A DNA stretch of 64,000 bases, taken from assembly GCF_024172095.1 (NCBI RefSeq), contig NZ_JAMZDX010000007.1:1-64000 (forward strand), written 5' to 3'. Positions 1,035 through 17,462 of the stretch are shown one piece after another. Numbering within the stretch: the first letter of the stretch is position 1; each line of letters opens with the position of its first letter. This DNA comes from Kitasatospora cinereorecta (lineage in GTDB: Bacteria > Actinomycetota > Actinomycetes > Streptomycetales > Streptomycetaceae). The position numbers and the translations under genes are program-made. The notes under the pieces were generated by a model that saw only the letters and a program-made list of their open reading frames with translations, had not been told where the DNA came from and did not search any database.

Positions 1035-1048
1035 GAGCCGATCGGCCC
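1035..1048. promoter_or_regulatory. Candidate DevR/DosR-type operator upstream of the SHOCT gene
   Basis: The 14-mer GAGCCGATCGGCCC is a 6-2-6 inverted repeat with one mismatch, 78 bases before the SHOCT start. It resembles the palindromes at 12394 and 13384. The geometry equals that of the mycobacterial DosR box. The binding factor is inferred. Confidence 0.35.
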
Positions 1049-1125
1049 AAGCGCCGAGGACGCGCCGGGGCGGACCGTGGTGGTGAGGGGCAGCTGCCCG
1101 CACGAGCACGGCCGAGGAGCCGGCG

Positions 1126-1425
1126 ATGATGTACTGGAACGACCACGGCATGAACGGTTGGGGCCTCGGCTTGATGACCTTCAGCATGCTGCTCTTCCTG
1201 GGGCTGATCATCTTCGGCGTCGTCCTCCTGGTCCGCCACCTCGACGGTAGCCCGCAGCAACACCCCAGCGGTCGGCCCACACCTCCGCCGCCGGAGCGGC
1301 CGGCTCCCGAGCAGCTACTCGCCGAGCGCCTGGCCCGGGGCGAGATCGACGCCGATGACTACCACCAGCGTCTGGAAGCCCTGCGTACGGGCGCGGGTCG
1401 ACCGCCGGCAGGGAGGCCGTCATGA
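1126..1425 (+). CDS. SHOCT-domain small membrane protein
   Basis: A 99-residue protein with one hydrophobic segment (about residues 12-36), a proline-rich linker and a C-terminal SHOCT-like motif (LLAERLARGEIDADDYHQRLEAL, residues about 66-88). SHOCT domains are short oligomerisation helices found at the C-termini of actinobacterial membrane proteins. An alternative start is the second ATG at 1129. The stop overlaps the start of the following nitroreductase remnant (ATGA, 1422-1425), so the two were once co-translated. Such genes commonly sit in actinobacterial universal-stress-protein clusters. Specific function is unknown. Confidence 0.7.
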   Translation: MMYWNDHGMNGWGLGLMTFSMLLFLGLIIFGVVLLVRHLDGSPQQHPSGRPTPPPPERPAPEQLLAERLARGEIDADDYHQRLEALRTGAGRPPAGRPS

Positions 1426-2400
1426 CCACCATCGCGCTGGAGAAACTCGTCTCCGCCGCAGTCGCCGCGCCCTCCATCCACACCAGCCAGCCCTGGCACT
1501 TCCGCCTGCGCCCCGAGACCTCCATGCTCGAGGTACGCGCCCTGCGGGAGCGCTCGGTTCCGGTCACCGACCCGCAAGGCCGGGCCCTGCACGTCTCCGT
1601 CGGTGCCGCCGTGCTCAACCTGCGCGTCGCAGCTCGCCACCCGGGCTGGGCACCCGAGGTACGGCTGCTGCCTGACCCCGCCGAACCGGATCTGCTGGCC
1701 GCCGTCGAGCTGGACCAGCCCTCGCTGGCCACGCTCCCGGCCAATGCCGAGCTCTTCGAAGCGATCTGACACCGGCACACCGTTCGCACGACCTTCACCG
1801 GACCGCCCGTCCCCGCAGCCGTCCTCGAACGGCCGGCCGAGGCCGCCCAGGCGGAGGACGAGACGCTCTACCTGCCCGATTCCGAGGAGCGGGCCAGGCT
1901 GCTGGCTCACGGCCGAGGCCGAGCGCAGCAACACCACCGACCCGGAGCACCGGCCTGAGAGCCGCAGCTGGCTTCAGGGGCCAGGGGCGCCCGCGTACGG
2001 CATCCCGTCCGCCGCCCTCGGGCCGCAGGACCGTGCCGGGCAGCTCCCGATGCGGGACTTCTCGGCGATCCGGCCGGCTGAGCACCTGCCGCCCGCCGTG
2101 TTCGAGGCCGAGCCGTGCATTGCGGTGCTCGCCACCGAGCACGATCGGCCGGTGGACTGGCTGCGCGCCGGGCCGGCATTGGAACACGTGCTGCTGGTGG
2201 CGACCGTGCACGAGGTCCGCGCCTCGCTGCTGCACCAGGCCATGGAGTGGCCCTACCTGCGCTGGGCCGCCCGGGACGCGGAACAGGTGCTGGGACAGGT
2301 CCAGCAGGTCGTCGAGGCGCAGCTGCGGCAGCGGGGTCGGACTCTCCGGTGCGCCGCCCACGGGTCCCTCCGGGTCTCGACGGATACCACTACCCAGACT
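1422..2400 (+). pseudogene. Acg-family FMN-binding nitroreductase, decayed
   Basis: The first 115 residues (MTTIALEKLVSAAVAAPS, SIHTSQPWHFRL) match the start of Acg/Rv2032-type nitroreductase-like proteins, which belong to the DosR regulon in mycobacteria. The frame meets TGA at 1767, continues in frame (HRHTVRTTFTG) to about 1905, then shifts by one base. The new frame carries TAEAERSNTTDPEHRPESRSW, MRDFSAIR and ATEHDRPVDWLRAGPALEHVLL as far as about 2330, then drifts again. At least one in-frame stop and two frameshifts are present in a family of about 330 residues. Overlap with the SHOCT stop indicates an ancestral operon. Almost certainly a pseudogene. Confidence 0.75.
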
Positions 2401-2509
2401 ACGCACCGGACCCGCGCCGCAGCCTCCGTGGCTGGCCAGCCCGGGTCGGACGGGCCCGATGGTGGGTCCGACCGTCGTCCCATGGCGTTCTCGCGCTCGC
2501 GGGCGAACG

Positions 2510-2614
2510 CTGGAGGGGTACCGCTTCGGACTCGACGAGATGCAGGACGCCTACGACGTCTTCGCGGACACCGAAGCCGGCGGTGCCCTGAAGGTCGCGC
2601 TCTTCCGCACCTGA
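2510..2614 (+). pseudogene. C-terminal fragment of a zinc alcohol dehydrogenase
   Basis: The last 34 codons of an open frame read LEGYRFGLDEMQDAYDVF and end in GALKVALFRT followed by TGA. This is the usual C-terminal helix and strand of medium-chain zinc alcohol dehydrogenases. Nothing upstream in this frame encodes the rest of the enzyme. It follows directly on the decayed nitroreductase, so a deletion probably joined the two genes. The complete dehydrogenase at 3410-4444 ends differently, so this is a relic of another paralogue. Confidence 0.6.
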
Positions 2615-2647
2615 ACAGGCCTCAGCCAGGGGCGAGGAGGAACCACC

Positions 2648-3349
2648 GTGAACAGCCCAGCCGACCCCACCGCACATGCCGTACCCCCGCCGGACCCCGC
2701 TGACATCGCCCGACGCATCGCCGAGCGGCAGGGCCGGCTCGAACTCACCGAGGAAGCACTCGCCCGACGCGCCGGCATGGCTCCCACCTACCTACGGCTC
2801 CTGCTGACGGCACGGACCGACTTCGACCCCGCGAGCCTCCTGCGCATCGCCGCCGCGTTGGACCTCACGTACGAGGAACTGCGCGAGGGCCGAAGCGACC
2901 CGCCGCCCGGGCAAGGACCGGCACCGGCACGCCCCGCGCTCGTCCACCTCACCACCCCCGAATGCTGGGACAGGCTCGGACCGAGGGGAGTCGGCCGTAT
3001 CGCACTGTCGACCGGCCCGGGCCCGACCGTCCTCCCGGTCAACTACACCGCCGACGCCGGAACCATCGTCTACCGCACCGATCCCAACGGCGCCGCGGCG
3101 CCCATGCGGGGGACGACAGTGTCCTTCCAGGTCGACCACGTCGACGACCACCTGAGCACGGGCTGGAGCGTCCTCATCACCGGGACCGCCGAGCACATCG
3201 ACGACGTCGAGGCCATCCAGCGACTCGAGACCGCGTACCGGACGGAACCGTGGGCCGGCGGAAACCGACCGCTGTGGGTGCGCATCCAGCCGGACACGAT
3301 CAGCGGTCGCCGCATCGGCACCATCGGCCCGGACAGCCACCTGCACTGA
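2648..3349 (+). CDS. XRE-type helix-turn-helix fused to a pyridoxamine 5'-phosphate oxidase-like domain
   Basis: The 233-residue product has an N-terminal HTH region (about residues 20-80, with TEEALARRAGMAPTYLRLLL) followed by a flavin-binding split-barrel domain (about 95-225, with GVGRIALSTGPGPTVLPVNY and GWSVLITGTAEHI). Flavin split-barrel proteins of this kind bind FMN or F420 and act as oxidoreductases or sensors. Fusion to a DNA-binding domain suggests a flavin-dependent regulator. It begins 7 bases after a GAGGAGGAACC ribosome-binding site, so the ATG at 2648 is well supported. It sits in a run of redox-stress genes on the same strand. Substrate and target promoters cannot be read from the sequence. 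Confidence 0.75.
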   Translation: MNSPADPTAHAVPPPDPADIARRIAERQGRLELTEEALARRAGMAPTYLRLLLTARTDFDPASLLRIAAALDLTYEELREGRSDPPPGQGPAPARPALVHLTTPECWDRLGPRGVGRIALSTGPGPTVLPVNYTADAGTIVYRTDPNGAAAPMRGTTVSFQVDHVDDHLSTGWSVLITGTAEHIDDVEAIQRLETAYRTEPWAGGNRPLWVRIQPDTISGRRIGTIGPDSHLH

Positions 3350-3409
3350 TCCGGCGGTTCCCCGAGCCATCCCCACCCACGCGCGGCAGCCCAGGAAGGA
3401 CGCACGGAG

Positions 3410-4444
3410 ATGTCCGCCCCTGCCCGCCCCACACCAGCCACCACCACCGCCTGGATCGTCGACCACACCGCGCCTGCCGCCGAGAATCCACTGCGGCTGG
3501 TGGAACGTCCGCTGGCTGCGACCGGTGCACGTGACCTGCTCGTCGAGGTCGCAGCCTGCGGTGTCTGCCGCACAGACCTCCACCTGGCCGAGGGCGACCT
3601 CGCCCCGCACCTGCCGCACTGCACCTCTGGCCACGAGATTGTCGGACGGGTCATGCGGATCGGGAACGAGGTCAGCGGCTTCGAGCCCGGCGACCGAGTC
3701 GGCGCCGCCTGGCTCGCAGGCACCTGCGGCGAGTGCCGGTACTGCCGCTCCGAACAGGAGAACCTCTGCCCCCGCTCGACCTACACCGGGTGGGACCGCC
3801 ACGGCGGATACGCCCGGCACACCGTCGTCGACGCCCGATTCGCGTACCACCTCCCAGAGGGGCTGCCAGCCGAGGAGCTCGCCCCGCTGCTGTGTGCCGG
3901 CATCATCGGCTACCGGGCTCTGGAGCGTGCCCAACTGCCGCCCGGCGGCCGCCTGGGCATCTACGGCTTCGGCGCCTCCGCCCACCTCACTGCCCAGCTC
4001 GCACTGTCGCGCGGTGCCACCGTCCACGTCCTCACCCGAGCGGAGGCAGCCCGTCGGCTCGCCCTCGACCTCGGTGCGGCCTCCGCCCGTGGCGCGTACG
4101 ACGCACCGCCGGAGCCGCTCGACTCCGCGATCCTCTTCGCTCCGGTCGGCGACCTCGTCCCCGTCGCGCTGGCTGCGCTCGACCGAGGCGGAACCCTCGC
4201 AGTGGCCGGCATCCACCTCACCGACATCCCCGCCCTGAACTACCGGCAACACCTCTTCCAGGAACGGACCCTGCGCAGCGTCACCGCCAACACCCGCGCG
4301 GACGGCCTCGCCTACCTCGCCGAGGCCACCCGCCGTCGACCCACCGTTCATGTCCAGTCCTACCCCGTGGAGCAGGCACCTGAGGCCCTCGCCGACCTGG
4401 CCGCCGACCGAATCACCGGTGTTGCCGTCCTGATGGCCGATTGA
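3410..4444 (+). CDS. Zinc-dependent alcohol dehydrogenase, medium-chain family
   Basis: A complete 344-residue enzyme. The catalytic zinc site is visible as Cys50 (CGVCRTDLH) and the GHE motif at 74-76. The structural zinc ligands are Cys106, Cys109, Cys112 and Cys120 ([15 protein letters not shown]). The Rossmann glycines are in [10 protein letters not shown] near residue 185. The family oxidises alcohols or reduces aldehydes with NAD(P). The start has a GGAAGGACGCACGGAG leader. It is 60 bases downstream of the XRE/oxidase gene on the same strand and is probably cotranscribed with it. Substrate is unknown. A relic of a second such dehydrogenase lies at 2510-2614. Confidence 0.88.
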
Positions 4445-4862
4445 GTCCTGCCCCCTTCTTGCGTATCTGCGCCCGAAAAGGCAGGTGCTTCCGCAGGTCG
4501 GGCCGTGCTCCAGGCTCACCTACGAAGAGCACGTAGCGTCACGGGGCGGCCGTTGTCGGGCAGCGACGGAGGACCTTCGATCTCCGCAGCGACCCGGAAG
4601 AAGGCTCAGGCGGCGACCGGCTCCTTCCGTAGGTCCCCGGGGAAGAGAAAGCTGAGGGAGAACCGGACGCCTGCGACTACGCCGAAGCCCTGGTTCACCC
4701 CGAGGTCCCGGCCCACCGCGGCGTACCCAGCGGGCACTCCTGCCCTTTGGCCAGACCCGTCATGTCACCGAACACCGGCCTCATCCGTGTAGGGATTCAG
4801 AGCCGCGTTCGAGCGGGTCCGCATGGCCGGCGTGCGAATCGACAACAGAGGACACATCAGAG
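4445..4862. other. Intergenic region without a supported gene
   Basis: About 420 bases with no frame that looks protein-like; the one long frame (4505-4792) is basic, low in hydrophobic residues and lacks a ribosome-binding site. The promoter for the membrane protein/sigma factor pair is presumably in its right half, but no clear -10/-35 pair was recognised. Confidence 0.5.
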
Positions 4863-5651
4863 ATGAAGGACTTCCGCTCAGAACTGAGTGACGAACTGAC
4901 GGCACTCAACCCCCCTCCGCTGGGCGACATCGTCGGATCGGCCATGCGCAGCGGCCGACGGACCCGCCGTGGCCGCGCGATCGGCGCGGTGACCGGCTCG
5001 GTCGTCGCGCTCACAGGGATCGCGGTCCTGCTCGGCGGCCCGCTCGGTGTCGCCGGGCGGACGCCGAACCAGGTCGGCGTGGCGGCTGCGACGGCTTCGT
5101 CGCCGGTCGCGCTGGCCGCCGGTGCCAACCCCACTCCCACGGCCGGCCTGGTTCCCACCACCGGCGCCGCGCTGCTCTCCAGCCTGCTGCGTGTGCTGCC
5201 GCAGGACGCCCAGACCAGCGGCTACGCCGGCGAGACCGCCTGGGTCGCCGGGTCCAACGAGACCGTCGCCCAGGTGTACCTGACCACCCCCGCCGGTACA
5301 GGGATGATCCGGGTCTTCCTCGGCTCCGCCAACCCCGCGATGCCCTGCTCGGCGGAGAACTCATGCGTCCGCGATCAGCGGGGACAGCAGGTGAGGGTCA
5401 TCCACCACAAGGACAACTGCATCCAGAACACCGTTGTGTCGGTGCTGCACGCCGACGGCACCGAGGTGATGCTCGACATGGCCAGCTGCCTCGCCTGGGA
5501 CGGCAAGGGCAACAAGCCGGGCATCCTGGCCCTCACCGAGGAGCAGGCGATCGCCGTGGCCGGTGACCCGGCGATCGGCAAGCTCATGACCCAGGCCGCC
5601 GGTGAAGCCGCCGCCGCTCAGTTCCCGTCCCTACCCCGCCTGACCAGCTGA
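4863..5651 (+). CDS. Membrane-anchored hypothetical protein, possible anti-sigma partner
   Basis: The 262-residue product has a cytoplasmic N-terminus (MKDFRSELSDELTALNPPPLGDIV), an arginine-rich stretch, one transmembrane segment (about residues 40-62) and an extracytoplasmic domain with four cysteines (PCSAENSC and further CIQ and SCLAW). This layout is common among actinobacterial proteins encoded beside SigE-family sigma factors. The sigma gene follows after 87 bases on the same strand, so a role in controlling it is likely but inferred. No known anti-sigma domain was recognised. The ATG at 4863 follows an AGAGGACAC leader. Confidence 0.6.
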   Translation: MKDFRSELSDELTALNPPPLGDIVGSAMRSGRRTRRGRAIGAVTGSVVALTGIAVLLGGPLGVAGRTPNQVGVAAATASSPVALAAGANPTPTAGLVPTTGAALLSSLLRVLPQDAQTSGYAGETAWVAGSNETVAQVYLTTPAGTGMIRVFLGSANPAMPCSAENSCVRDQRGQQVRVIHHKDNCIQNTVVSVLHADGTEVMLDMASCLAWDGKGNKPGILALTEEQAIAVAGDPAIGKLMTQAAGEAAAAQFPSLPRLTS

Positions 5652-5738
5652 CGGTTCCACCTGTCGCGGCCCCGGTGCGCCGGGGCCGCGACACCGCTCC
5701 ACCCACAGACACGGCTGCACCAGAACGGGGTCACCGCA

Positions 5739-6236
5739 GTGCGCAAGGACGAAGAGTTCATAAGTTTCGCCGAGGGGTGCACGGTACGGCTGCGCCAGAT
5801 CGCCTTTCTGATGTGCCGGGACTGGCACCTGGCCCAAGACCTCACCCAGACCACCCTCACCAAGGTCTACATCGCCTGGCCCCGCCTCACCCGCCGGGAC
5901 ACCGACCCCTTCTTCTACGCCCGCAAGGTGCTGCTCAACACCCTGCTCGACCACAAACGCCGGCCCAGCACCAGTGAGCTGGCCACCGACCAACTGCCGG
6001 AGCACCCCGACTCCCCGGACCTCACCGCCGCCCGGCTGACCCTGCTGGGAGCACTCGCCCTGCTCTCCCCCCGCGACCGGGCGATCGTGCTGCTGCGCCA
6101 CTGGGAAGACCACAGCGTGGAGACCACCGCCGAGATCGTCGGCGTCAGCACGTCCGTGGTCAAGACCCAGACCGCCCGCGGCCTCGCCATCCTGCGCGCC
6201 CACCTCGGCGAGGAGCGCATGGCACTCTTCTCCTGA
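5739..6236 (+). CDS. SigE-family ECF RNA polymerase sigma factor
   Basis: A 165-residue sigma-70 family protein starting at GTG 5739. Region 2 is at about residues 10-75 (RQIAFLMCRDWHLAQDLTQTTLTKVY) and region 4 at about 95-155 (LALLSPRDRAIVLLRHWEDHS and the helix-turn-helix EIVGVSTSVVKTQTARGLA). The size and the QDLTQTTLTKVYIAWPR block are typical of the Streptomyces SigE/TIGR02983 group. It directs RNA polymerase to a stress regulon, often held in check by a neighbouring membrane protein; the gene at 4863 is the candidate here, in the unusual order partner first. Confidence 0.85.
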   Translation: MRKDEEFISFAEGCTVRLRQIAFLMCRDWHLAQDLTQTTLTKVYIAWPRLTRRDTDPFFYARKVLLNTLLDHKRRPSTSELATDQLPEHPDSPDLTAARLTLLGALALLSPRDRAIVLLRHWEDHSVETTAEIVGVSTSVVKTQTARGLAILRAHLGEERMALFS

Positions 6237-6279
6237 ACTCCGGTGTGCACCAGGCTCGACCAGAGCAGGACCGCGAGCG

Positions 6280-6319
6280 GGCCCCGCTCTGTAGGTTGTC
6301 ATCCCGGCCGAGCGGGGCC
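6280..6319. terminator. Inverted repeat between convergent genes
   Basis: GGCCCCGCTC at 6280-6289 pairs perfectly with GAGCGGGGCC at 6310-6319 across a 20-base loop. It sits between the sigma factor stop (6236) and the stop of the convergent DUF885 gene (6333), the expected place for a shared terminator. No U-tract is present. Confidence 0.5.
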
Positions 6320-6332
6320 TGTCCCTACCGGT

Positions 6333-8008
6333 TTACAGGGTGGAGAGCTGGTCGACCAGGTCGTCGAGACCGAGCGAGCCCTGGGAGAGCGCCTTCATGT
6401 GCCAGGTCTTCAGGTCGAACGTGCCGCCTTGTCGGCGGCGGGCGGCTTCGCGCCCCCGCAGCCAGGCGCGCTCACCGAGCTTGTAGCCGATGGCCTGACC
6501 TGGCCAGCCGAGGTAACGGACGATCTCGCTGCTGCGCAGTTCGGCCGGGCTGCCGGTGTACGTGGCCATGAACTCCGTGGCGAGCTGCGGGGTCCAGCGC
6601 TCGCCGGGACGGAAGCCCGCATCGGCGGGGATGGCCAGGCCCACATGCATGCCGATGTCGATGATCACCCGGATGGTGCGCAGCATCTGCTCGTCGAGGA
6701 AGCCGAGGCGGTGGGCGGGGTCGGAGAGGAAGCCCAGCTCGTCCATGAGTCGTTCGGCGTACAGGGCCCAGCCTTCGATGTTGGCACTGACAATGCCCAG
6801 CGTGGTCTGGTAGCGGCTGAGTCGGTCGGCGAGGGCGACCCACCGGGAGAGTTGAAGGTGGTGGCCGGGGACGCCCTCGTGGTACCAGGTGGTGACGAGC
6901 TGCCAGGTCGGGAAGGTGTCCCGGCCGAGGGCCGGCAGGTAGGTGCGTCCCGGGCGGCTGAAGTCCAGGCTGGGGCCGGAGTAGTAAGGTGCTGCGGCGC
7001 TGCCGGTCGGCGCGATCCGGGACTCCACCCGGCGCTGGGGGCCGGAGATGTCGAAGTGGGTGCCGTCGAGGGCTGTGATCGCCTGGTCCATGAGCTGTTG
7101 CAGCCAGTCGCGGATCGCTTCCTCGCCCTTGACCGCGTGACCGTGCCGCTCCAGGTGGTGCATGGCGCCCTGGACTCCCGCGCCGGGCAGCACGCGTTCA
7201 GCCTCGGTGCGCATCTCGGCCGCCGTCTGGTGGAACTCGCTCCAGGCCCATGTGTAGGCCTCGTCGAGGTCGAGATCGGCGCCCGTGTGGTAGCGCACGG
7301 CGAGCCGGTAGCGCTCCCGCCCCACGGCGTCCGGGGTGTTGGCGGTGGCCGGGGCATAGGCGTCGCGCAGCCAGTCGCGGAACCCGGCGACGGCGACGGT
7401 GGCCTTGAGGGCGGCGGCGCCGAGTTCGCCGCGCAGCCGCTCGGGGCCCGGGGCAACGAAGTCGGTGAACCACCCCGCGCTGTCGCTGCCCTCGCCGGTC
7501 CAGGCGGTGAGCTGGTCGATGACCGCGGCTGCCTGGCGGGGCGCGGCGAGCAGGCCCCGGGAGATCCCCTCGGTGAGTGTCGCGCGGTACCCGTTGAGCG
7601 CGGCCGGCAGGTTCCGCAGTCGCCCGGCCACCGCTGCCCAGTCGTCGTCGGTGGCGGCCGGCATGAAGGTGAAGATGTCCCGCACGTGGTGGACGTGCGC
7701 GCCGATGTTGCGCAGCTGGCGGAAGTTCTCGCCGGTGTCGTGCATGGCGAGCTCGGCGGTGACGCGCTCCCGGAGCAGCCGGGCGCAGGCCCGGTCGGTG
7801 GGGTCATCGGTGGCGGGGGCGGCGTCGAGCACGGCGAGTGTACGTCGGGCGACATCGGCGAGCGCCTCGAAACCTTCCGGGGAGAGGTCCGGCTGCCGGT
7901 CGTCGCCCGGGTGCAGGCCCAGCCAGCGGCTTCCAGTGGGTCGAGTGCAGCCACCTGGTCGAGGTGACGGTCGGCGATGGTGCGGGGGGTGATCGTTTCA
8001 TCTGCCAT
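6333..8008 (-). pseudogene. DUF885 family protein with a single frameshift near its N-terminus
   Basis: The long minus-strand frame (6333 to about 7925) encodes a DUF885 protein, a zinc-metallopeptidase-like family, with the hallmark WYHEGVPGHHLQLS and the later ANIEGWALYAERLMDELG. The natural start is the ATG at 8008 (MADETITPRTIADRHLDQVA), in a different frame. One base is missing near 7925, between EAAG and LGLHPGDD. Joining the frames gives about 558 residues, the usual family size. Translation from an internal ATG at 7832 would give 499 residues without the N-terminal helices. It is therefore either a very recent pseudogene or carries a sequencing error; the rest is undamaged. It converges on the sigma factor. 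Confidence 0.75.
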
Positions 8009-8364
8009 GCCGTCATCCTGGCGCACCCTCAGGATGACCTGACGAGCGGTAGGCGCCGGGCGCGCGCATCCCGGGTCGGGCGACAGTCTGGGATGCGACG
8101 GAAGGCGGAACGAGTGGTGAAGCCGGGCTGCTTGCCCCGTCTTGGGTGCCCTGCTGAGGATTCCGCAGGCCGCCTGGGTGTGGTGAAGACAGGGTGTGGT
8201 GGCGGCCGTGGCCAATGAACCTGAGGGCATGGCGCCGGCCGGGCCGAGGGTGGGTTGCCATTGCGCTGTGCAGGCGTCCCGGTACTGGCTGTTGATCGAC
8301 GTGTGCGAACCGCGCGAGAGCCCTTTACGCGCCCTCGGCGTGGCGATACCTTGCGGAAACATCC

Positions 8365-8378
8365 TGCAAGTTCTTGCA
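8365..8378. promoter_or_regulatory. MalR/Reg1-like operator upstream of the pullulanase
   Basis: TGCAAGTTCTTGCA is an inverted repeat with perfect 6-base arms and a 2-base centre. An upstream CTTGCGG at 8350 may be an extra half site. TGCAAG/CTTGCA repeats are the binding sites of the LacI-family maltose regulator MalR (Reg1) in front of Streptomyces amylase genes. It lies 199 bases before the pullulanase start. The whole 8009-8576 interval holds no gene. Confidence 0.6.
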
Positions 8379-8576
8379 TCAGTCGGTGTGGCCGTCCAGG
8401 TGTTCACGGCCGCTTCCCCCCACCCAGATGTTCGGGAGCCGCCGCCTGAGCTCCTGCCCAGCTCCCGCTCCCCACCTCCCACCCCCACCCAGCCGGCGCG
8501 GTCGTTGCGGACCGGAGTCGCCCATGCGCGGCTTCCGCACGCCTCGGCGCGCGGCATGCCCAGGAGGCAGCCCCCC

Positions 8577-11138
8577 ATGAGACACAGGCCTCAACCACGT
8601 ACCGGCCCGCGCAGAGCGCCGATCCTCGCCGTGGCAGCTGCTCTTCTCGGCACCGGCACCGTCGTCGTGTCGGCTTCCCCAGCCGGTGCCGTGCCCACCG
8701 CGGTGAGCCTGCCCGCGACCTTCGACAGCGAGATCGGCTGTGCCGCCGACTGGCTGCCCGACTGTACCCAGGCGCAGCTGGCCCAGCGCGCCGACGGTAT
8801 GTGGGCAGCCAGCCTGAGCCTGCCCGCCGGCACCTACGCCTACAAGGTCGCGATCAACAACGGCTGGACCGAGAACTACGGGGCCGGTGGCGCCCCGGGC
8901 GGCGCGAACATCTCCATCACCGTCCCGGCCGGTGGAAAGCTCGTCACGTTCGTCTACGACCCCGTCACCCACGTGGTCACCGACAACTCCATTCAGCAGG
9001 TCGTCACCGCCGTCGGTGACTACCAGTCCGAGCTCGGCTGCGGCGCCGACTGGTCCCCCACCTGTGCGGCGACCACGATGCAGGATCCCGACGGCGACGG
9101 CGTGTACACCTACACCACCACCGCGATCCCCGTCGGCGCCTGGAACACCAAGGTCGCCATCGGGCAGTCCTGGACTGAGAACTACGGTGCCGGCGGTGCT
9201 GCGGGCGGCGTGAACATCGGCTTCACCGTCCCGGCGAACGGGGCGACCACGACGTTCTCGTACAACTCCGTCAGTCACCTGACGACGGTCCAGAGCACCG
9301 GCGGCAGCGGCGGGGGGTCCTCACTCAACACGCTCGGCGCGATCTACACCCCCACCGGCACCACCTTCCGCCTCTGGTCGCCCGACAACTCCAATGTCAC
9401 CGTCACCGTCGGCGGCGCCACCTACCCGCTGAGCCCGACGACCCTCAGCGGCTACTCGAACGTCTACCAGGCGGTGGTCGGCGGTGACCTCAAGGGCCAG
9501 ACCTACCAGTTCGCCGTCGGCGGCACTGCGGTACGCGACCCCTACGCCCAGATGGCCAACCCCGGCACCACCCAGGGCGTCGTGGTCGACAGCGCCGCGG
9601 TCACCCCGACCGGCGGCACCTGGGCACCCCGCCCGGCCCTGGCCAACCGCGAGGACGCGGTCGTGTACGAGCTGAGCGTGCGTGACTTCACCATCGACGC
9701 CAGCTCAGGCGTCGACCCGGCCAAGCGCGGCAAGTTCCTCGGCCTGGTGCAGACCGGCACCACGAACAACGGCGCGAAGACCGGCATCGACCACCTCAAG
9801 GAACTGGGCGTCAACACCGTCCAGATCATGCCGTCCTTCGACTTCGGCAGCACCGCGCCGAACTGGGGCTACGACCCGGTGAACTACAACGTCCCCGAGG
9901 AGCAGTACTCGCAGTACACCCTCCCCGAGGACCGGATCCGGGAATTCAAGGACATGGTCAACGAATTCCACAAGAACGGCATCCGCGTCGTCATGGACGT
10001 GGTCTACAACCACACCTTCAGCCAGTCGGTCCTCGGCGGGATCACCGGCAAGTACTACACGCCGACCGACCTGTCGGGAACAGGCAACTCGATCGACGAC
10101 GGCAACCCCATGGTGAGCCGGATGATCCAGGACTCGCTGGAGCACTGGGTCCGGGACTACAACGTCGACGGGTTCCGCTTCGACCTCATCGGCGTGCACT
10201 ACTGGAACAACGTGTCCACCTGGGCGAACTACCTCAACACCGCGTACGCCGACCGCAACCTGCTCCTCTACGGCGAGCCGTGGAACGGCGGCGCCGCCGA
10301 CTCCGCCGAGGCGCAGAAGGTCCGTTACGGCAACGTCCCCGCGCTCGCGCCCGCGCACGTCGGTGTGTTCAACGGCGTCTATAGGGACGCCATTCGAGGC
10401 GGAACCGACGACAACGTCATGGCGTACATGGGAGGTTCGGGCAACCCCGGCGCCATCGCCTTCGGCATGCGCGGCTCACCGACCGACCTGAAGAGCACCG
10501 CGCCGATCTCCAACCTGTGGACCCCGGCGTTCGCCTACGACCCCGAGCAGACGATGAACTACGCCTCCATCCACGACAACCTCAACCTCTACGACAAGAT
10601 CACCTACTCCGGCGGCAGCGGCGGAGCCACTGGCACCGCCGGGCGCATCGACCGCTTCGCCGTCGGCACGGTCCTCACCTCCCAGGGCATCCCGGTCATC
10701 GCCGAGGGCGACGAGTTCCTCCGCTCCAAGGTCGTGAACGGCGACTACACCACCGCCAAGAACTCCTACAACGCCTCCGACACCGTCAACGCGATCCACT
10801 GGGGCGACAAGACCACCAACGCCAACGTCTTCCGCTACTACCGGGACGCGATCGCCCTCCGGAAGTCCGCGCCCGCCCTGCGGCTGACCACCTGGGACGC
10901 CGTCCACAACCAGATGACCGCCCAGGTGGACGGTTCCGTCGTCGTCGGGCGCTTCAGCTCCAACCCGGCCGCGCCCACGAGCTACGACACCGTCGTGGTC
11001 GACAACCCCACCGGCGCCACCTACAACGTCACGCTGCCTGCGGGCACCTGGACCAAGGTCCTGGACACCAACGGCGCCGTCGTCGCTGGCGACACCGCCT
11101 GCGAGGGCCTCGCCGTGACCGTCTTCAAGAAGAGCTGA
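8577..11138 (+). CDS. Secreted type I pullulanase-like alpha-glucan hydrolase (GH13)
   Basis: The 853-residue product starts at ATG 8577 behind AGGAGGCAG. It has an export signal (RRAPILAVAAALLG, ending near SPAGA), two pullulanase-associated X25-like modules (about residues 42-140 and 145-245, each with GC.ADW and a WTENYGAGGA strand), a CBM48-like module (about 260-350) and a GH13 catalytic domain. Diagnostic motifs are PNWGYDPVNYNVPE (pullulanase YNWGYDP signature), DVVYNHTF, GFRFDLIGVHY with the nucleophile Asp, LLYGEPW with the acid Glu, and SIHDN. It hydrolyses alpha-1,6 branches of pullulan or starch outside the cell. Regulation by maltose is suggested by the palindrome at 8365. Confidence 0.9.
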   Translation: MRHRPQPRTGPRRAPILAVAAALLGTGTVVVSASPAGAVPTAVSLPATFDSEIGCAADWLPDCTQAQLAQRADGMWAASLSLPAGTYAYKVAINNGWTENYGAGGAPGGANISITVPAGGKLVTFVYDPVTHVVTDNSIQQVVTAVGDYQSELGCGADWSPTCAATTMQDPDGDGVYTYTTTAIPVGAWNTKVAIGQSWTENYGAGGAAGGVNIGFTVPANGATTTFSYNSVSHLTTVQSTGGSGGGSSLNTLGAIYTPTGTTFRLWSPDNSNVTVTVGGATYPLSPTTLSGYSNVYQAVVGGDLKGQTYQFAVGGTAVRDPYAQMANPGTTQGVVVDSAAVTPTGGTWAPRPALANREDAVVYELSVRDFTIDASSGVDPAKRGKFLGLVQTGTTNNGAKTGIDHLKELGVNTVQIMPSFDFGSTAPNWGYDPVNYNVPEEQYSQYTLPEDRIREFKDMVNEFHKNGIRVVMDVVYNHTFSQSVLGGITGKYYTPTDLSGTGNSIDDGNPMVSRMIQDSLEHWVRDYNVDGFRFDLIGVHYWNNVSTWANYLNTAYADRNLLLYGEPWNGGAADSAEAQKVRYGNVPALAPAHVGVFNGVYRDAIRGGTDDNVMAYMGGSGNPGAIAFGMRGSPTDLKSTAPISNLWTPAFAYDPEQTMNYASIHDNLNLYDKITYSGGSGGATGTAGRIDRFAVGTVLTSQGIPVIAEGDEFLRSKVVNGDYTTAKNSYNASDTVNAIHWGDKTTNANVFRYYRDAIALRKSAPALRLTTWDAVHNQMTAQVDGSVVVGRFSSNPAAPTSYDTVVVDNPTGATYNVTLPAGTWTKVLDTNGAVVAGDTACEGLAVTVFKKS

Positions 11139-11166
11139 ACCGTACCCGCAGCCGTGGATCCGCGCG

Positions 11167-11200
11167 GCCGCCGCGAGACACCTTTCGAGGTGCCTCGCGG
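11167..11200. terminator. Strong hairpin after the pullulanase gene
   Basis: CGCCGCGAGACACC and GGTGCCTCGCGGCG form a stem with a single A/C mismatch around a six-base loop, 28 bases after the pullulanase stop and before the stop of the convergent CBS gene. Likely a bidirectional terminator. Confidence 0.7.
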
Positions 11201-11238
11201 CGTCCGACGCTCGCCGCGAGACCGTGCGGTCGTCCCCG

Positions 11239-11955
11239 TCAGCGGTGGTGTGCGGAGTGGGAGCCGATGATGCCGCGGACGGCCGACTGGGCGGCGGTGT
11301 CCACGCGGGTGTCGTCGGTCTCGTAGCCGAGCGTCTGGCGGACGGCGACCACCCCGTCCAGTGAACGGCACATCCGCTCGAGGATCGGGACGAGGCTCTT
11401 TCGCTCGACGGTGCCGGTCAGCGTGACGACGCCGTCCTCGACCGACACGTCGACCGCGTCCGCCGGCTGCCACAGCGTTTCGAGCAGGATGTCGTGAGTG
11501 ATCTCCGCGCGGATCGAGGCGTCCTCGCGCAGGAAGGGTCGCAGCACGTCGGCGCGGCTGACGATACCGGTCAGCCGGCCGTCCTGGTCGATGACGGGCA
11601 GCCGCTTGAGCTTCCTGCGGTCCATCACCCGGGCGGTCTTCACCAGGCTCCAGTCGGCCCGCGCGGTGACGACCGGACTGGTCATCAGTTCCTCGGCGAG
11701 CGCCGGCCCAGCAAGGTACGGCCCGTGCGGGTGGACCCACCGGGCGCTCCGGTGGTCCTCGCCCAGGAGACCGGCCTCCTTGCGGATCAGGTCGGCCTCG
11801 GAGACGAGCCCCACCGGGCGGTCCAGCTCGTCGACCACGGGGACGGCGGTGATGCCGCGGCGGTGGAACAGGGCGGCGATCTCCTTGAACGTGGTCTCGG
11901 GGTGGGCGACGACGACATCCCGGGTCATCACGTCCCCGACGGTGCAGTGCTGCAT
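11239..11955 (-). CDS. CBS-domain pair with BON domain
   Basis: The 238-residue protein carries two CBS motifs (about residues 7-62, TVGDVMTRDVVVAHPETTF; and 88-145, ELMTSPVVTARADWSLVKTA with RADV) followed by a BON domain (about 150-212, with VSVEDGVVTLTGTVERKSL). CBS pairs bind adenine nucleotides and serve as energy sensors; BON domains may bind lipid or partner proteins. This architecture is frequent in actinobacterial dormancy and stress clusters next to universal stress proteins, as here. The ATG at 11955 follows GAAGGAGGTCGCACC, an excellent ribosome-binding site. It is on the same strand as the DUF1876 and stress-protein genes. Confidence 0.85.
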   Translation of the reverse strand: MQHCTVGDVMTRDVVVAHPETTFKEIAALFHRRGITAVPVVDELDRPVGLVSEADLIRKEAGLLGEDHRSARWVHPHGPYLAGPALAEELMTSPVVTARADWSLVKTARVMDRRKLKRLPVIDQDGRLTGIVSRADVLRPFLREDASIRAEITHDILLETLWQPADAVDVSVEDGVVTLTGTVERKSLVPILERMCRSLDGVVAVRQTLGYETDDTRVDTAAQSAVRGIIGSHSAHHR

Positions 11956-12013
11956 GGTGCGACCTCCTTCGGGTGAGGGTTCCCGGGCCCCGCCGACAGC
12001 CGCGTTCGCACGG

Positions 12014-12295
12014 TCAGCTGTGCAGCGGCGGTTCGTTGGCGGCGGCGTCGGTCACGCCGAAGTGGAGGAGCTGGTCGCCGAGATCGACCAAGGCCCGGCC
12101 GGCCGCGTACTCGTCGCCGATCTCGGGGACCGGAGGGTCGTGCGGATTGCGGTGGGCTTCGGTGTGGCTCTCCAGCCGGTTGTCCCCGGTGTCGAGGACG
12201 GCGTGAACCTTGGTGACGTCGCCCTCTTCGAAGAGATCCACGCGCAGCGTCCACGTTTTCGTGCGCGTCGGTGTGCCCGTCGTCTGCGTGTCCAT
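12014..12295 (-). CDS. DUF1876 (Rv1738/Rv2632c-like) small protein
   Basis: A 93-residue protein with TKTWTLRVDLFEEGDVTKVH, AVLDTGDNRLESHTEAHRNP and DEYAAGRALVDLGDQLL. This matches the DUF1876 family, which includes mycobacterial Rv1738, a DosR-induced protein with a fold like ribosome hibernation factors. The start ATG 12295 has AGGAAGGACGG upstream. It lies between the CBS gene and the universal stress protein on the same strand. A perfect GGGCCG/CGGCCC palindrome sits about 100 bases upstream. A role in dormancy or ribosome protection is inferred from the family only. Confidence 0.75.
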   Translation of the reverse strand: MDTQTTGTPTRTKTWTLRVDLFEEGDVTKVHAVLDTGDNRLESHTEAHRNPHDPPVPEIGDEYAAGRALVDLGDQLLHFGVTDAAANEPPLHS

Positions 12296-12393
12296 GGCCT
12301 GGTCCGTCCTTCCTGCGGTCGGCCGGCCTCGCGTCCCGGGTGACCTCGGGAGGCCGTGTCTCCAGCCTGCTCCGGGACGTGGCCCGCGGGAAT

Positions 12394-12407
12394 GGGCCGC
12401 CCGGCCC
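12394..12407. promoter_or_regulatory. Perfect GGGCCG-CC-CGGCCC palindrome upstream of DUF1876 gene
   Basis: A 14-base perfect inverted repeat (6-2-6) in the 149-base gap between the universal stress protein stop and the DUF1876 start, 99 bases before that start. Spacing equals that of a DosR-box. It is the strongest of the three similar sites in this window. The regulator is inferred. Confidence 0.4.
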
Positions 12408-12444
12408 CAATGGCGGTGCCGGGCGGGTCGCGGGTGGCGTCCCG

Positions 12445-13293
12445 TCAGCCGTACGGGACCACCGCGAGCGGGCTGTGGACGTGGTGGACCGCCGCCTCGG
12501 TGACCGGTCCCAGGTGGGGTCCGCCGGAACCGGCGCCGCTGCGCCGGCCGACGACCAGAAGGTCCGGCCGGCCCACGGCATCGATCAGCGTCGCCGCGGG
12601 GCTGCCGCGCAGCAGGGACGCCACCACCGTCACGTCGGGGTACTTCTCCCGCCAGGGCTCGACCGCGGCGGTGAAGCGCTCCATCGCGTCCGCCGCCATC
12701 TCCTCCTCGAGCTCCGCGACCACCGCCGGGGCCAGGTCGCCGCCGCCCGGCGGCCGCCAGGCGTGGACCACCCGCAGCGGCACCGAGCGCAGGGCGGCCG
12801 ACTCGAACGCGAATGCGATCACCCCGCCGCAATGGTGGTCCAGGTCCAGGCCGAGGACCACCTCGCCGGTGGATCGCGGCGTGTCCCTCGTCGGGCGGAC
12901 GAGGACGATCGGGCAGGCGGCGCGCTCGAGAACGTGCCGGCCCACCGGTCCGACGAGGAAACCGCGCAAGGTGCTCAGACCCCGGGAGCCCAGCGCCAGC
13001 ATCGCGGCGTGCTCGCCGGCCTCGACCAGCGCCTGGCCGGCGCTGCCGGTCCACTGGACGGCGGTCACGTCGACGGTCGACAGCTGCGCGCGCAGCTCGG
13101 CCTCCTGCCGGCCGAGCCGACTGCGGGACTCGGCCACGGCGTCCGGCTGCCCGAGCATCTCCTCGGCCATCCAGGGCCAGGCAAGCAGGAGCTCCAAGCG
13201 CAGACCGCGCAGTTCCGCCTCGCGTACGGCCCACTGCGCGGCGGCGGTGCTTTCGGGTGATCCGTCGTATCCGACGGTGATCGGGGCGGTCAC
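12445..13293 (-). CDS. Universal stress protein with two USP domains
   Basis: The 282-residue product has two USP modules: residues about 3-140 (ITVGYDGSPESTAAAQWAV, ending ALGSRGLSTLRGFLVGPV and CPIVLVRP) and about 150-282 (GEVVLGLDLDHHCGG, ending LLVVGRRSGAG and SPLAVVPYG). The G-2x-G-9x-G-(S/T) ATP-binding signature is recognisable in the first half and altered in the second. Start is GTG 13293 behind CGGAGGTCGCC; extending further upstream gives low-complexity sequence. Tandem USPs are hallmark members of DosR-type regulons. It is divergent from the hydrogenase maturation protease gene, sharing a 248-base control region. Confidence 0.88.
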   Translation of the reverse strand: MTAPITVGYDGSPESTAAAQWAVREAELRGLRLELLLAWPWMAEEMLGQPDAVAESRSRLGRQEAELRAQLSTVDVTAVQWTGSAGQALVEAGEHAAMLALGSRGLSTLRGFLVGPVGRHVLERAACPIVLVRPTRDTPRSTGEVVLGLDLDHHCGGVIAFAFESAALRSVPLRVVHAWRPPGGGDLAPAVVAELEEEMAADAMERFTAAVEPWREKYPDVTVVASLLRGSPAATLIDAVGRPDLLVVGRRSGAGSGGPHLGPVTEAAVHHVHSPLAVVPYG

Positions 13294-13383
13294 GGCGACC
13301 TCCGAGAGGCTCGGACGGGCTGGTCTGCTGTCAGTCTCGTCCGCCCGACGCCGATGCGGCCGGTGCCGGTCGGCCCCGATCGC

Positions 13384-13397
13384 GGGCTGACCGGCCC
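13384..13397. promoter_or_regulatory. Palindrome in the stress-protein/hydrogenase divergent promoter region
   Basis: GGGCTGACCGGCCC is a one-mismatch version of the GGGCCG-N2-CGGCCC repeat. It is 91 bases before the universal stress protein start and 145 bases before the hydrogenase protease start, so it could serve both divergent units. The regulator is inferred. Confidence 0.35.
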
Positions 13398-13541
13398 TGA
13401 CCGGGCTCCGGTCGCTCGTGCCGACCGGCTCCTCGCCGCTGTCCGACCGGGCGGACCCGCGCGCCGCCGGGCCGGTGGGGCTCTCTGAGTGCAGGATCGG
13501 TGCCACCCGGGCGTCCGGGTCAGCGCCGCTGGGGAGGACGC

Positions 13542-14063
13542 ATGGGTGCCACCGCAGAACGGGCCTCGCCGCCCGACCGCATCGTCGTCATCGGTGTCGG
13601 CAACCCGCTGCGGGGCGACGACGGCGTTGGCACCGCCGTGGTGGACGTGCTGGCCGCCGACCCCTGCCCGGTGGCACGCCTCGCGGTCTGCGACGGTGAA
13701 CCCGCGCGTCTGATCGAGCTGTGGGACGGTGCGGAGCTGGCCGTCGTGCTGGACGCGGTGAGGGTGCCGCCGGAGCGGGCCGGCCGGTTGCACCGGCTGC
13801 GGCTCACCGGGAACGGAGCGTCGGCACCCGGGGAGGTGACCGTCGAGCCGACTGCGGCCGGGTCGCACGGGCTCGGCCTCGGCCACGCCCTCGCGCTGGC
13901 CACGGTGCTCGGCCGGGTGCCCCGCCGCCTCGTCCTGCTCGCGATCGGGGGAAGCGCCTTCGGGCTCGGACACGGACTCGGCCCGGCCGTCGCCGAGGCC
14001 GTCCCGGGAGCCGCGGCGGCGGTCCGCGGGATCGTGGCCCGGCACCGCGCGGGTCGTCGATGA
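13542..14063 (+). CDS. [NiFe]-hydrogenase maturation protease
   Basis: A 173-residue M52/HycI-like endopeptidase with the diagnostic start IVVIGVGNPLRGDDGVGTAV (residues about 14-33) and the later conserved Asp in LAVVLDAVR and His in GSHGLGLGHALAL. These acidic and His residues bind the nickel of the immature large subunit before its C-terminal peptide is removed. The expected substrate is the large subunit encoded at 17459, which ends with a short extension after its last motif. Start ATG 13542 is preceded by GGGGAGGACGC. It leads the hydrogenase set and is divergent from the universal stress protein. Confidence 0.88.
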   Translation: MGATAERASPPDRIVVIGVGNPLRGDDGVGTAVVDVLAADPCPVARLAVCDGEPARLIELWDGAELAVVLDAVRVPPERAGRLHRLRLTGNGASAPGEVTVEPTAAGSHGLGLGHALALATVLGRVPRRLVLLAIGGSAFGLGHGLGPAVAEAVPGAAAAVRGIVARHRAGRR

Positions 14064-14238
14064 CCGTCGGGCGCCGGGCGGTCGACCCGAACACTTCGCC
14101 CGTCCGGGGGAGCCGTGGCGTCGGTCCGGCGCGGCGGCGGGCCTCCGCCGCAGCTTTCCGGCGTCGGCGGCACAGGATGGGCGCACGACTCCAGGGCCGG
14201 CTGCCCGGTGGCGCCCGTCAGCTGCAGGAGGTAGCACC

Positions 14239-15393
14239 ATGACCAGCGCTCCGGCGGCCACCGCGGTCATCGACCGGGCGGGGCTCGACGCGCTGATCCG
14301 CGTGCTCGCCGCGCATGGCCGTACCGTGGTCGGGCCGACCGTGCGCGACGGTGCCATCGTGCTGGCCGAGCTCGCCTCCGGCGAGGAGCTTCCGTACGGC
14401 TGGGGCGTCGAGCTGGAGGCCGGCCACTACCGGCTCCGCCCCCGTCCCGACGGCGCGGCCTTCGCCCACAGCGCGGGGCCCAACTCGTGGAAGACGTTCC
14501 TGCACCCGCAGCGCGAGCGGCAGTGGAGCGCGGACCGAGCATCCGACGGCGGCACGGCGTTCCGTACCGACCCGCCGCCGACCGTCTCCTACGCCTTCCT
14601 CGGCGTGCGCCCCTGCGACCTGAGGGCCATCGCGATGCAGGACCGGGTGCTCACCGGCGGACCGCACGCCGACGGGCGCTACCGGTCCCGGCGTTCCCGG
14701 GCGTTCCTGGTCGCCGTCGAGTGCACCGAGCCGGGCGCCACCTGTTTCTGCGTCTCGATGGGGACCGGACCCGCAGCTGGACCGGGCTACGACCTGGCCC
14801 TGACCGAGCTGGTCGACGAGGACGGCCACCGGTTCCTGGTCCGGGCGGGCAGCCCGGAGGGCGAGCAGGTGCTGGCCGAGCTGCGCCTCCGCCCGGCCGA
14901 CCCGGACACCCGGGACGAGGCCGCCCGGGTCGTGCGGGAGGCGGCGGACCGGATGGGCCGCACCATGCCGCCGGTCGACCTGCGGGCCCTGATGCGCGAC
15001 ACCCTGGACGCCGAGCGCTGGGACGACGTCACCGCGCGCTGTCTGACCTGCGGCAACTGCACCATGGTGTGCCCCACCTGCTTCTGCACGACCGCCGAGG
15101 ACGTCACCGACCTGACCGGTGACCACGCCGAGCGCTGGCGGCGCTGGGAGTCCTGCTTCGACCTGGAGTTCACCCACCTGCCGACCGGACCGGTCCGCTC
15201 CTCGCCGCGCAGCCGCTACCGGCAGTGGCTCACCCACAAGATCGGCACCTGGCACGACCGGTTCGGCAGCTCCGGCTGCGTCGGCTGCGGCAGGTGCATC
15301 GTCTGGTGCCCGGTCGGCATCGACATCACCGAGGAGGCCCACGCCCTCAACCAGGAGCGTAGGACTGTGGCCGACCGCCAGGAGATGCCGTGA
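14239..15393 (+). CDS. hyhB: Group 3b [NiFe]-hydrogenase (sulfhydrogenase) beta subunit, iron-sulfur protein
   Basis: A 384-residue protein of the HydB/HyhB family. The first 250 residues form the family domain (YAFLGVRPCDLRAIAMQD, FCVSMGTGPAAGPGYDLAL). Two [4Fe-4S] cluster motifs follow: CLTCGNCTMVCPTC from residue 268 and CVGCGRCIVWCPVG from residue 347. It passes electrons between the small subunit and the flavin subunit. The start ATG 14239 is behind CTGCAGGAGGTAGCACC. Its stop overlaps the next start by four bases (ATGA at 15390), indicating translational coupling. Similar to the anaerobic sulfite reductase A family, but operon context identifies it as hydrogenase beta. Confidence 0.88.
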   Translation: MTSAPAATAVIDRAGLDALIRVLAAHGRTVVGPTVRDGAIVLAELASGEELPYGWGVELEAGHYRLRPRPDGAAFAHSAGPNSWKTFLHPQRERQWSADRASDGGTAFRTDPPPTVSYAFLGVRPCDLRAIAMQDRVLTGGPHADGRYRSRRSRAFLVAVECTEPGATCFCVSMGTGPAAGPGYDLALTELVDEDGHRFLVRAGSPEGEQVLAELRLRPADPDTRDEAARVVREAADRMGRTMPPVDLRALMRDTLDAERWDDVTARCLTCGNCTMVCPTCFCTTAEDVTDLTGDHAERWRRWESCFDLEFTHLPTGPVRSSPRSRYRQWLTHKIGTWHDRFGSSGCVGCGRCIVWCPVGIDITEEAHALNQERRTVADRQEMP

Positions 15394-15854
15394 CGGCACT
15401 GCTCGCCGGGCTGGCCGCCGACCACCGCGATCGGCTGCTCGCTCTCGGCCGAGACGTCGCCTGGGCCGACGGGGCCCGGATCTTCGAGGAGGGTGGGCCG
15501 GCCGACCGGTTCTGGCTGGTCCGGAGCGGCCTGGTCGCGCTCGACGTTCACGTGCCGGGCCGTGGCACGCTCGTCGTCGAGACTCTCGGCGAGGGGGAAC
15601 TCCTCGGCTGGTCCTGGCTGTTCGAGCCGTACCGCTGGCAGCTCGGGGCGGTGGCCCGCGGCGTGGTCGACGCGATCGAGTTCGACGCCGCGGCGGTGCG
15701 GGCGGCGATGGACGACGAGCCGGCCTTCGGCCTGGAACTGCTGCGGCTGATCGGGGCGGGGACAATCGGGCCGCGGCTGCACGCGGCCCGCACCCGGCTG
15801 CTCGACCTCTACGGCGGTGGGCAGGACACCGCCGGGACCGGTCCCGCGCGGTGA
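15390..15854 (+). CDS. Cyclic-nucleotide-binding domain protein without DNA-binding domain
   Basis: A 154-residue protein consisting of a Crp-like beta-barrel (about residues 10-115, with GPADRFWLVRSGLVALDV and LGEGELLGWSWLFEPYRWQ) and a short C-terminal helix. A Crp/Fnr HTH is absent: the protein ends at RTRLLDLYGG plus a short tail. It is embedded between hyhB and hyhG with four-base overlaps on both sides (ATGA, GTGA), so it is translated with the hydrogenase subunits. It may be an accessory or sensing subunit rather than a transcription factor. Whether it binds a nucleotide cannot be decided; the canonical cAMP-pocket Arg/Ser pair is not evident. Confidence 0.8.
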   Translation: MTALLAGLAADHRDRLLALGRDVAWADGARIFEEGGPADRFWLVRSGLVALDVHVPGRGTLVVETLGEGELLGWSWLFEPYRWQLGAVARGVVDAIEFDAAAVRAAMDDEPAFGLELLRLIGAGTIGPRLHAARTRLLDLYGGGQDTAGTGPAR

Positions 15855-16678: not shown

Positions 16679-16679
16679 G

Positions 16680-17462
16680 ATGGACCGGCCACGGCTGGCG
16701 GTGTGGAAGTTCGCCTCCTGCGACGGCTGCCAGCTCACCCTGCTCGACTGCGAGGACGAACTCCTCGACCTCGCCGAACGCCTGGAGATCGCCCACTTCC
16801 TCGAGGCGGCCACCGCGCCCGCCGCAGGCCCGTACGACCTCTCGCTGGTCGAGGGCTCGATCACCACCGCCCAGGACGCCGAGCGGATCCGACGGGTCCG
16901 GGCTGCGTCCCGGTACCTGGTGACCATCGGCGCCTGCGCCACCGCCGGCGGCATCCAGGCGCTGCGCAACAACGCGGACGTGGCCGAGTACCGCGCGGTG
17001 GTGTACGCGCGGCCGGAGTACGTCGAGACCCTGGTCACCTCCACCCCGATCAGCGCCCACGTCCCGGTCGACTTCGAGCTGCGTGGTTGCCCGATCGACC
17101 GCGGGCAGCTGATCGAGGTGATCACCGCGTACCTGGCGGACCGCACGCCCGACGTGCCGAGGCACAGCGTCTGCTTCGAGTGCAAGCGCCGAGGCACCGT
17201 GTGCGTGACCGTCGCGCACGGCACCCCGTGCCTGGGGCCGGTCACCCATGCCGGATGCGGCGCGCTCTGCCCCGCGTACGCGCGCGGCTGCTACGGCTGC
17301 TTCGGCCCATCGGACTCGACCAACCTGCCGGCCTTCGTCCCACTGCTGCGCCGCGGGGGGCTCGCCGGGCCGGACGTCGTCCGGGTGCTGCGCACCTTCA
17401 ACACTGCCGCCCCCGAGTTCGACACCGCCGCCCGGCAGGCCGCCGAGGAGGCGGACCGATGA
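16680..17462 (+). CDS. hyhS: Group 3b [NiFe]-hydrogenase small subunit
   Basis: A 260-residue small subunit without a Tat signal, so cytoplasmic. Cluster ligands are Cys14 and Cys17 ([10 protein letters not shown]), the Cys in [13 protein letters not shown] in [11 protein letters not shown], and the later [11 protein letters not shown] and [20 protein letters not shown] groups. Three clusters in series carry electrons from the NiFe site to the beta subunit. It starts one base after the hyhG stop and overlaps the large subunit start (ATGA at 17459). The cytoplasmic location and gene order agree with bidirectional NADP-linked group 3b enzymes. Confidence 0.9.

Follow-up and report, generated by a model that had tools for sequence, protein, structure and literature searches.

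Three similar 14-bp palindromes and a relative of them lie among dormancy-type genes in the window, the first 64 kb of contig C7 of the Kitasatospora cinereorecta genome (8.64 Mb, nine contigs, 72% G+C), and raise the question of whether they are operators of one regulon and whether this regulon takes in the [NiFe]-hydrogenase encoded among them. The original prediction placed them at 1035, 12394, 13384 and 37169, and all four sequences were confirmed at these positions. With high confidence, from sequence comparison, we read them as boxes of class II promoters for OsdR, a response regulator of the DevR/DosR type, and the locus very probably represents a genuine part of an already known regulon, here in a further genome. 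Gene starts and intergenic status were taken from a codon-usage gene caller, not from annotation. The cited papers were covered in part, and statements drawn from them hold for those parts.

The OsdR box of Streptomyces is AGGGCCGATCGGCCCT (Urem et al. 2016, PMC5069765), and the window palindromes match it; the 14-mer core of the box at 13384 is the same as that of the predicted S. coelicolor OsdR site at SCO0355, AGGGCTGACCGGCCCG (PMC5069765). A matrix was built from 25 published sites (Table 1 of PMC5069765), which themselves score 11.4–18.7 bits, and gave the window boxes 14.5 bits (37168), 13.4 bits (13383), 12.9 bits (13362), 9.3 bits (1034) and 8.9 bits (12393). The site at 37169, previously described as a weaker relative, is instead the top-scoring match of the window, and the box at 13384 has a partner at 13363 (GTGCCGGTCGGCCC) that had not been listed, lies nearer to the universal stress protein (USP) gene and carries the promoter geometry. 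The claimed position between genes and upstream of them stands for the stress genes, with boxes 77–143 nt upstream of the USP, SHOCT, DUF1876 and slipin genes; the box at 12394 also lies just 3' of the USP gene. The four promoter regions are composed as follows.

1034–1049, + strand: OsdR box TGAGCCGATCGGCCCA before the SHOCT gene, centre at -43.5 from a predicted start at about 1085
1073–1078, + strand: predicted -10-like hexamer GACCGT of the SHOCT promoter, 32 nt past the box centre
1126–1425, + strand: SHOCT-domain small membrane protein (PF09851, E 3e-5, 24 bits, below the curated cut-off of 27), 58% to the SHOCT protein of C4
12014–12295, - strand: DUF1876/Rv2632c-like protein (PF08962, E 1.5e-20)
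12364–12369, - strand: predicted -10-like hexamer CAGGCT of the DUF1876 promoter, 32 nt from the box centre, predicted start 12357
12393–12408, - strand: OsdR box GGGGCCGGGCGGCCCA before DUF1876, an exact 14-mer 106 nt from the gene start
12445–13293, - strand: USP with two Usp domains (PF00582 at 12454–12861 and 12895–13284)
13333–13338, - strand: predicted -10-like hexamer GAGACT of the USP promoter, with GAGACT/AAGACT at equal distance in the C4 paralogue and in G006
13362–13377, - strand: proximal OsdR box GGGGCCGACCGGCACC before USP, centre at -43.5 from the predicted start 13326, kept in G006
13383–13398, - strand: distal OsdR box AGGGCCGGTCAGCCCG before USP, 21 bp from the proximal box
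36134–37033, - strand: slipin (Band 7; PF01145, E 6e-38)
37140–37145, - strand: predicted -10-like hexamer CAGGCT of the slipin promoter, 31 nt from the box centre, predicted start 37133, kept in L199, L200 and L202
37168–37183, - strand: OsdR box AGGCCCCTTCGGCCCT before slipin, 143 nt from the gene start, with the top matrix score in the window, kept in L199, L200 and L202

Bare 14-mers are no more frequent than expected by chance, and it is position and promoter grammar that give these boxes credibility. Hexamers of the form xANNNT, resembling a -10 element, started 31–33 nt past the box centre on the gene-ward side in 54 of 108 box-to-gene cases, as against 183 of 3793 random promoter positions. 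The cases comprised intergenic boxes scoring 12 bits or higher; 51 streptomycete hydrogenase loci were scanned, and 34 of them contributed. The window was excluded, and many of the loci are related. A second hexamer peak was present at 52–55 nt, one distance or the other being satisfied in 82 of the 108. Among neighbouring intergenic boxes, 17 of 28 spacings in the 8–60 bp range were 20–23 bp, which fits attribution of the second peak to the distal member of box pairs. With a hexamer at 31–33 nt, the proximal box would lie near -43 relative to the predicted start, like the DevR sites that overlap the -35 element (PMC3029386). In the window, the 16 matches of at least 8.5 bits were taken in both directions to give 32 orientations, four with a hexamer at 31–33 nt and 28 without. 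The four were those of SHOCT (+), DUF1876 (-), USP (-) and slipin (-), each pointing at its gene, and their box centres were predicted at -42.5 to -43.5 from the predicted starts. It is probable, taken as one proposal with the account of the hydrogenase given below, that the 31–33 nt rule is a promoter grammar sufficient for recognising OsdR regulons in bare sequence.

Conservation was followed within the genome and among relatives. Window positions 12317–13386 are a diverged copy (68%) of C4:575949–577117, and alignments with the C4 paralogues retain the SHOCT, USP-proximal and DUF1876 boxes, the SHOCT box in another duplicated segment described below. The USP promoter reads GGGGCCGnnCGGCACC in both copies, the off-consensus GGCACC included. 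The 16-mer GGGGCCGGGCGGCCCA 3' of the USP gene is identical at C4:577027 in the aligned segment, and the gene beyond it differs, being DUF1876 in the window and a gene without a Pfam match on C4. Among USP genes of the genome, a box of at least 12 bits was found within 200 bp in 5 of 14 examined, against 1 of 69 control genes, a count that leaves out 5 of 28 Usp-domain matches. Slipin box and hexamer were both present in four of seven other loci of the genus, namely L199 (99% protein identity, a near-copy), L200 (95%), L202 (90%) and L203 (77%, with a box pair about 210 bp upstream); L205 had boxes without the hexamer and L204 none that fits.

The SHOCT box belongs to a larger duplication. Positions 493–2614, at the very start of contig C7, are a decayed duplicate of the osdR-SHOCT-Acg-osdK-adh cassette of C4, in which osdR has lost its 5' part and undergone a frame change, Acg lies in two frames, and osdK and adh persist only as fragments. 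The SHOCT box is aligned with the box of the C4 paralogue, AGAGCCGACCGGCCCA, both reading GAGCCGAyCGGCCCAAGCGCCG with the off-consensus GAG arm included. Acg, named earlier among the target families of the island, is present only as a broken remnant; the C4 counterpart matches PF00881. The two broken genes are:

486–1010, + strand: broken osdR/devR copy (tblastn with the C4 OsdR protein: 487–645 in frame 1, 87%; 642–1010 in frame 3, 81%), with receiver and helix-turn-helix pieces in different frames and a GerE domain at 681–992
1419–2280, + strand: broken Acg-type nitroreductase (tblastn with C4 Acg: 69% and 74%, frames 3 and 1)

The genome carries its own osd core at C4:573–608 kb, with USPs, two osdR genes, two DevS-type kinases, an Acg-type nitroreductase and a SHOCT gene, and boxes there lie mostly 70–130 bp before genes. 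A 29-kb part of this core holds seven of the genome's 46 exact 14-mers (Poisson 3e-10, the region having been chosen after the fact). Intact OsdR-like genes were found at C4:594128, C4:604603 (75%) and C6:462352 (65%), the window copy being broken. The best solved-structure match of OsdR1 was M. tuberculosis DevR (2e-71), with an identical recognition-helix stretch AEKTVKN; K179, K182 and N183 contact DNA. The kinase beside osdR contains GAF, HisKA_3 and HATPase domains. It matches DevS haem-GAF structures, which, together with a near-equal relative, were the best matches of the first core kinase. Additional observations were made on these genes and boxes. A strong exact OsdR box at C4:586908 (L011) lies between convergent gene ends with no gene to drive. 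A GAF and SpoIIE phosphatase is encoded at 24730–26034 (-) of the window, its N-terminal part sharing about 50% identity with OsdK, and another short fragment of that N-terminal region is present at 35105–35362 (-), upstream of the P-type ATPase gene.

A number of results weigh against OsdR boxes, and a rival explanation is that chance GC-rich palindromes of a 72% G+C genome happen to fall between genes. Counts of the motif equal those of shuffles and controls: GGGCCG-N2-CGGCCC with up to two mismatches occurred 49 times in the window (50.7 +/- 6.95 in 100 shuffles), sites with up to one mismatch numbered 836 in the genome against 1147 for the reversed-pattern control, and exact 14-mers 46 against 55, so that no over-representation was found at either level. 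Within genes lay 23 of the 46 exact sites, with one more at a gene start, and the matrix also matches inside window genes, for example at 12560 (11.5 bits). The SHOCT and DUF1876 boxes, at about 9 bits, score below all 25 published sites. Nine of the 14 USP genes lack a 12-bit box, and 15 of 320 genes in a wider control that includes motif-selected loci have one. Of 35 box-to-gene cases scoring 12 bits or higher in the genome itself, loci selected by motif among them, 13 had the hexamer at 31–33 nt and 19 at either distance; the window sites were part of the set on which the hexamer rule was first recognised. The distal USP box was not found in G006, and the slipin relative in L201 (96%, match beginning at residue 23) has no box. 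A composite IUPAC pattern with a 31-nt offset and two mismatches gave 258/284 matches genome-wide against 302/301 for the control, without enrichment; this null is judged uninformative, as the mismatches are spent freely. About two composite matches would be expected by chance among the 32 orientations, at 5–6% each, and the weight therefore rests on which four passed. All four point at the right genes, boxes are retained in diverged paralogues and in most slipin relatives, and the hexamer peak at 31–33 nt is sharp. The placement of exact genome sites, unlike their number, departed from the control: 22 of the 46 exact sites lie between genes, 18 of these at most 350 bp upstream of a gene, whereas of 33 control palindromes examined out of the 55, 32 lay inside genes and one between them (Fisher 8e-6; 15 of 39 against 1 of 33 outside the osd core). 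A chance origin is on balance very unlikely.

Two further explanations accept the sites as functional and assign them otherwise. NarL-family boxes can look alike, and the genome holds 92 matches to the OsdR protein, from which it could be argued that another regulator of the NarL/LuxR type reads the boxes; just three intact genes reach at least 65% identity to OsdR, the others, the broken window copy aside, being at most 52% identical, and the box coincides with the OsdR consensus and is concentrated around osdR, which makes a different reader highly improbable. The palindrome at 12394 might alternatively be the transcription terminator of the USP gene, whose end it follows by 44 bp. It has a two-base spacer and no adjoining T run, a hexamer is found at the rule distance towards DUF1876, and the 16-mer with a similar hexamer is retained at C4:577027 before a different gene; a terminator is accordingly a very remote prospect, and an operator for DUF1876 is preferred.

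Whether the regulon extends to the hydrogenase was examined in the window and in other streptomycetes. The features concerned are:

13542–14063, + strand: hydrogenase maturation protease, hycI/hupD-like (TIGR00072, above cut-off)
14064–14238, + strand: leader of the hydrogenase structural operon, with no OsdR box (best match up to 500 bp upstream of the beta gene, 3.9 bits)
14239–18802, + strand: group 3b-like [NiFe]-hydrogenase with beta subunit, cNMP-domain protein, gamma, delta and alpha subunits (Pfam matches for beta, the cNMP protein, gamma and delta)

NCBIfam models of sulfhydrogenase subunits ranked first for alpha and delta and near the top for beta and gamma, with every score far below its cut-off. 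The closest hydrogenases in a named collection were those of a Kitasatospora and of Streptomyces oryzae (74% each). The gene for the cNMP-binding domain lies at 15390–15854 (+), between beta and gamma, and a protein with a similar-looking start is encoded on the opposite strand in L046.

Of 50 streptomycete leaders, 16 had a box scoring 12 bits or higher at 30–200 bp before the beta gene. These 50 remained of 80 hydrogenase loci after 29 from outside the Streptomycetaceae and L063, which has no beta anchor, were left out; L040, labelled 'Actinobacteria bacterium', was counted among the streptomycetes. None of 300 column-shuffled palindromic matrices reached 16 (mean 0.4, largest 12), and coding windows gave 2 of 500. 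In a tree of alpha subunits, 15 of the 16 rows with a box fell in one group of 19 (support 86/88), and the window hydrogenase in its sister group of 20 (support 86/91), where none of 17 scored leaders reached 12 bits, L029 and the window leader were likewise below, and L063 had no leader. When 17 leaders selected for containing a box were aligned, the invariant columns fell in the box region. Control of this hydrogenase family by OsdR in another streptomycete group is well supported by these comparisons. As the other part of the joint proposal considered probable above, OsdR would directly control the group 3b-like [NiFe]-hydrogenase in one Streptomyces group, from boxes, in many cases in pairs, located near -78 and -100 relative to the start codon, and the genome of the window would belong to a sister group that mostly lacks the structural-operon box, the divergent USP gene alone keeping one. 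Of 70 genomes of the window's genus searched for the hydrogenase, 28 had a match; among 24 long relatives in the genus, the own genome excluded, L175, L184 and L189 had a box scoring 12 bits or higher no more than 100 bp from beta, with the hexamer in L175 and L189. The beta subunit of L175 is 78% identical to that of the window, and the state without a box is therefore not universal near the window. When a shared motif was sought in the leaders of the window's hydrogenase group, no OsdR box was found; those leaders without a box (window 14064–14238, L024–L028 and L075) contain loosely conserved CCGTACGGGG-like and ATACTGG stretches that align poorly.

The original prediction ran a single regulon through the island, hydrogenase expression included, and on this reading the pair at 13362 and 13383 would act in both directions, driving hycI as well as USP and, through hycI, the hydrogenase. 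USP and hycI do diverge around two OsdR boxes in L039, L048, L049 and L060, in an arrangement more compact than that of the window; S. coelicolor SCO0207/0208 share OsdR boxes at up to -158 (PMC5069765); in G006 the kept box has USP at 75 bp and hycI at 88 bp; and the genus relatives L175 and L189 have box and hexamer directly before beta. An indirect or weak control of the hydrogenase in the window is conceivable from the divergent arrangement elsewhere and the position of the G006 box. Against this stand the distances of the window boxes from hycI (152 and 173 bp), the lack of a hexamer at 31–33 nt towards hycI for the boxes at 13362, 13383 and 13417, the absence of the distal box in G006, and the structural leader without a box, none of the 17 scored leaders of its own group reaching 12 bits; no box with a hexamer at 31–33 nt was found upstream of hycI or beta in the window. 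We regard a bidirectional element as unlikely, and in this genome OsdR most likely does not act directly on the hydrogenase operon. The P-type ATPase, also named as a target, is unsupported, no matrix match of even 5 bits being present on its upstream side (34601–37100). What holds of the single regulon is therefore a set of shared promoters for SHOCT, DUF1876, USP and slipin, and not its extension to the hydrogenase and the P-type ATPase.

The set was compared with known regulons. In common with the S. coelicolor OsdR regulon (SCO0204, PMC5069765) are the 16-bp palindrome, its clustering round osdRK, and USP, nitroreductase and pyruvate phosphate dikinase as kinds of target. Slipin and SHOCT are absent from Table 1 of PMC5069765, the main text of which, as covered, does not contain the words hydrogenase or DUF1876; the box-to-hexamer distance rule was not found in the parts of that paper covered, nor a link between OsdR and hydrogenase in the open-access literature searched. 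With the M. tuberculosis DevR/DosR regulon the window shares the 6-2-6 geometry and DUF1876-type genes, which are among the DevR/DosR targets. The earlier equation with the mycobacterial DosR box holds for this layout but not for the arms, which are of the GGGCCG type in the window, the OsdR version, and of the GGGACT type (GGGACT-N2-AGTCCC) in the mycobacterial consensus; the window boxes are not mycobacterial DosR boxes in the strict sense. A stringent form of the latter is GGGACTTNNGNCCCT (PMC6448022). USP targets are likewise common to both regulons (PMC5069765), and DevR promoters have at least two closely packed sites, the proximal one overlapping the -35 element (PMC3029386).

From these data we infer OsdR binding and activation, an oxygen signal and the start sites at the window boxes. 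Low oxygen or redox stress would lead an OsdK-type kinase to phosphorylate OsdR, a dimer of which may bind the box, whose centre lies some 43 bp before the transcription start, in the place of a -35 element, often with a second dimer 20–23 bp further out. Bound OsdR would then recruit RNA polymerase to the weak xANNNT -10 element, and would in this way drive USP (13362 and 13383), DUF1876 (12393), slipin (37168) and, within the decayed duplicate of the osd core, SHOCT (1034). With the local copy broken, the acting OsdR is presumably encoded elsewhere in the genome, by one or more of the three intact genes.

A mycobacterial counterpart to the hydrogenase is found in the group 3b enzyme Hyh/Hyd3 of M. 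smegmatis. This four-subunit hydrogenase is induced at low oxygen (PMC8125079, PMC2799521) and counted in the dos regulon (PMC8125079), a point in favour of hydrogenase control from the window boxes; it differs from the window case in genus and box letters, and the window hydrogenase lacks a correctly placed box. A crude pattern for DosR-like boxes before mycobacterial hydrogenase operons matched 2 of 22 leaders and 4 of 220 coding windows, and no direct box was shown. The results provide a short list of predicted promoters with predicted starts, and a simple grammar for finding OsdR targets in genomes of high G+C content, in which the box by itself is uninformative. They would tie oxygen and dormancy control to hydrogenase expression in part of Streptomyces and, if true, dormancy control of hydrogen metabolism would be common to mycobacteria and streptomycetes.

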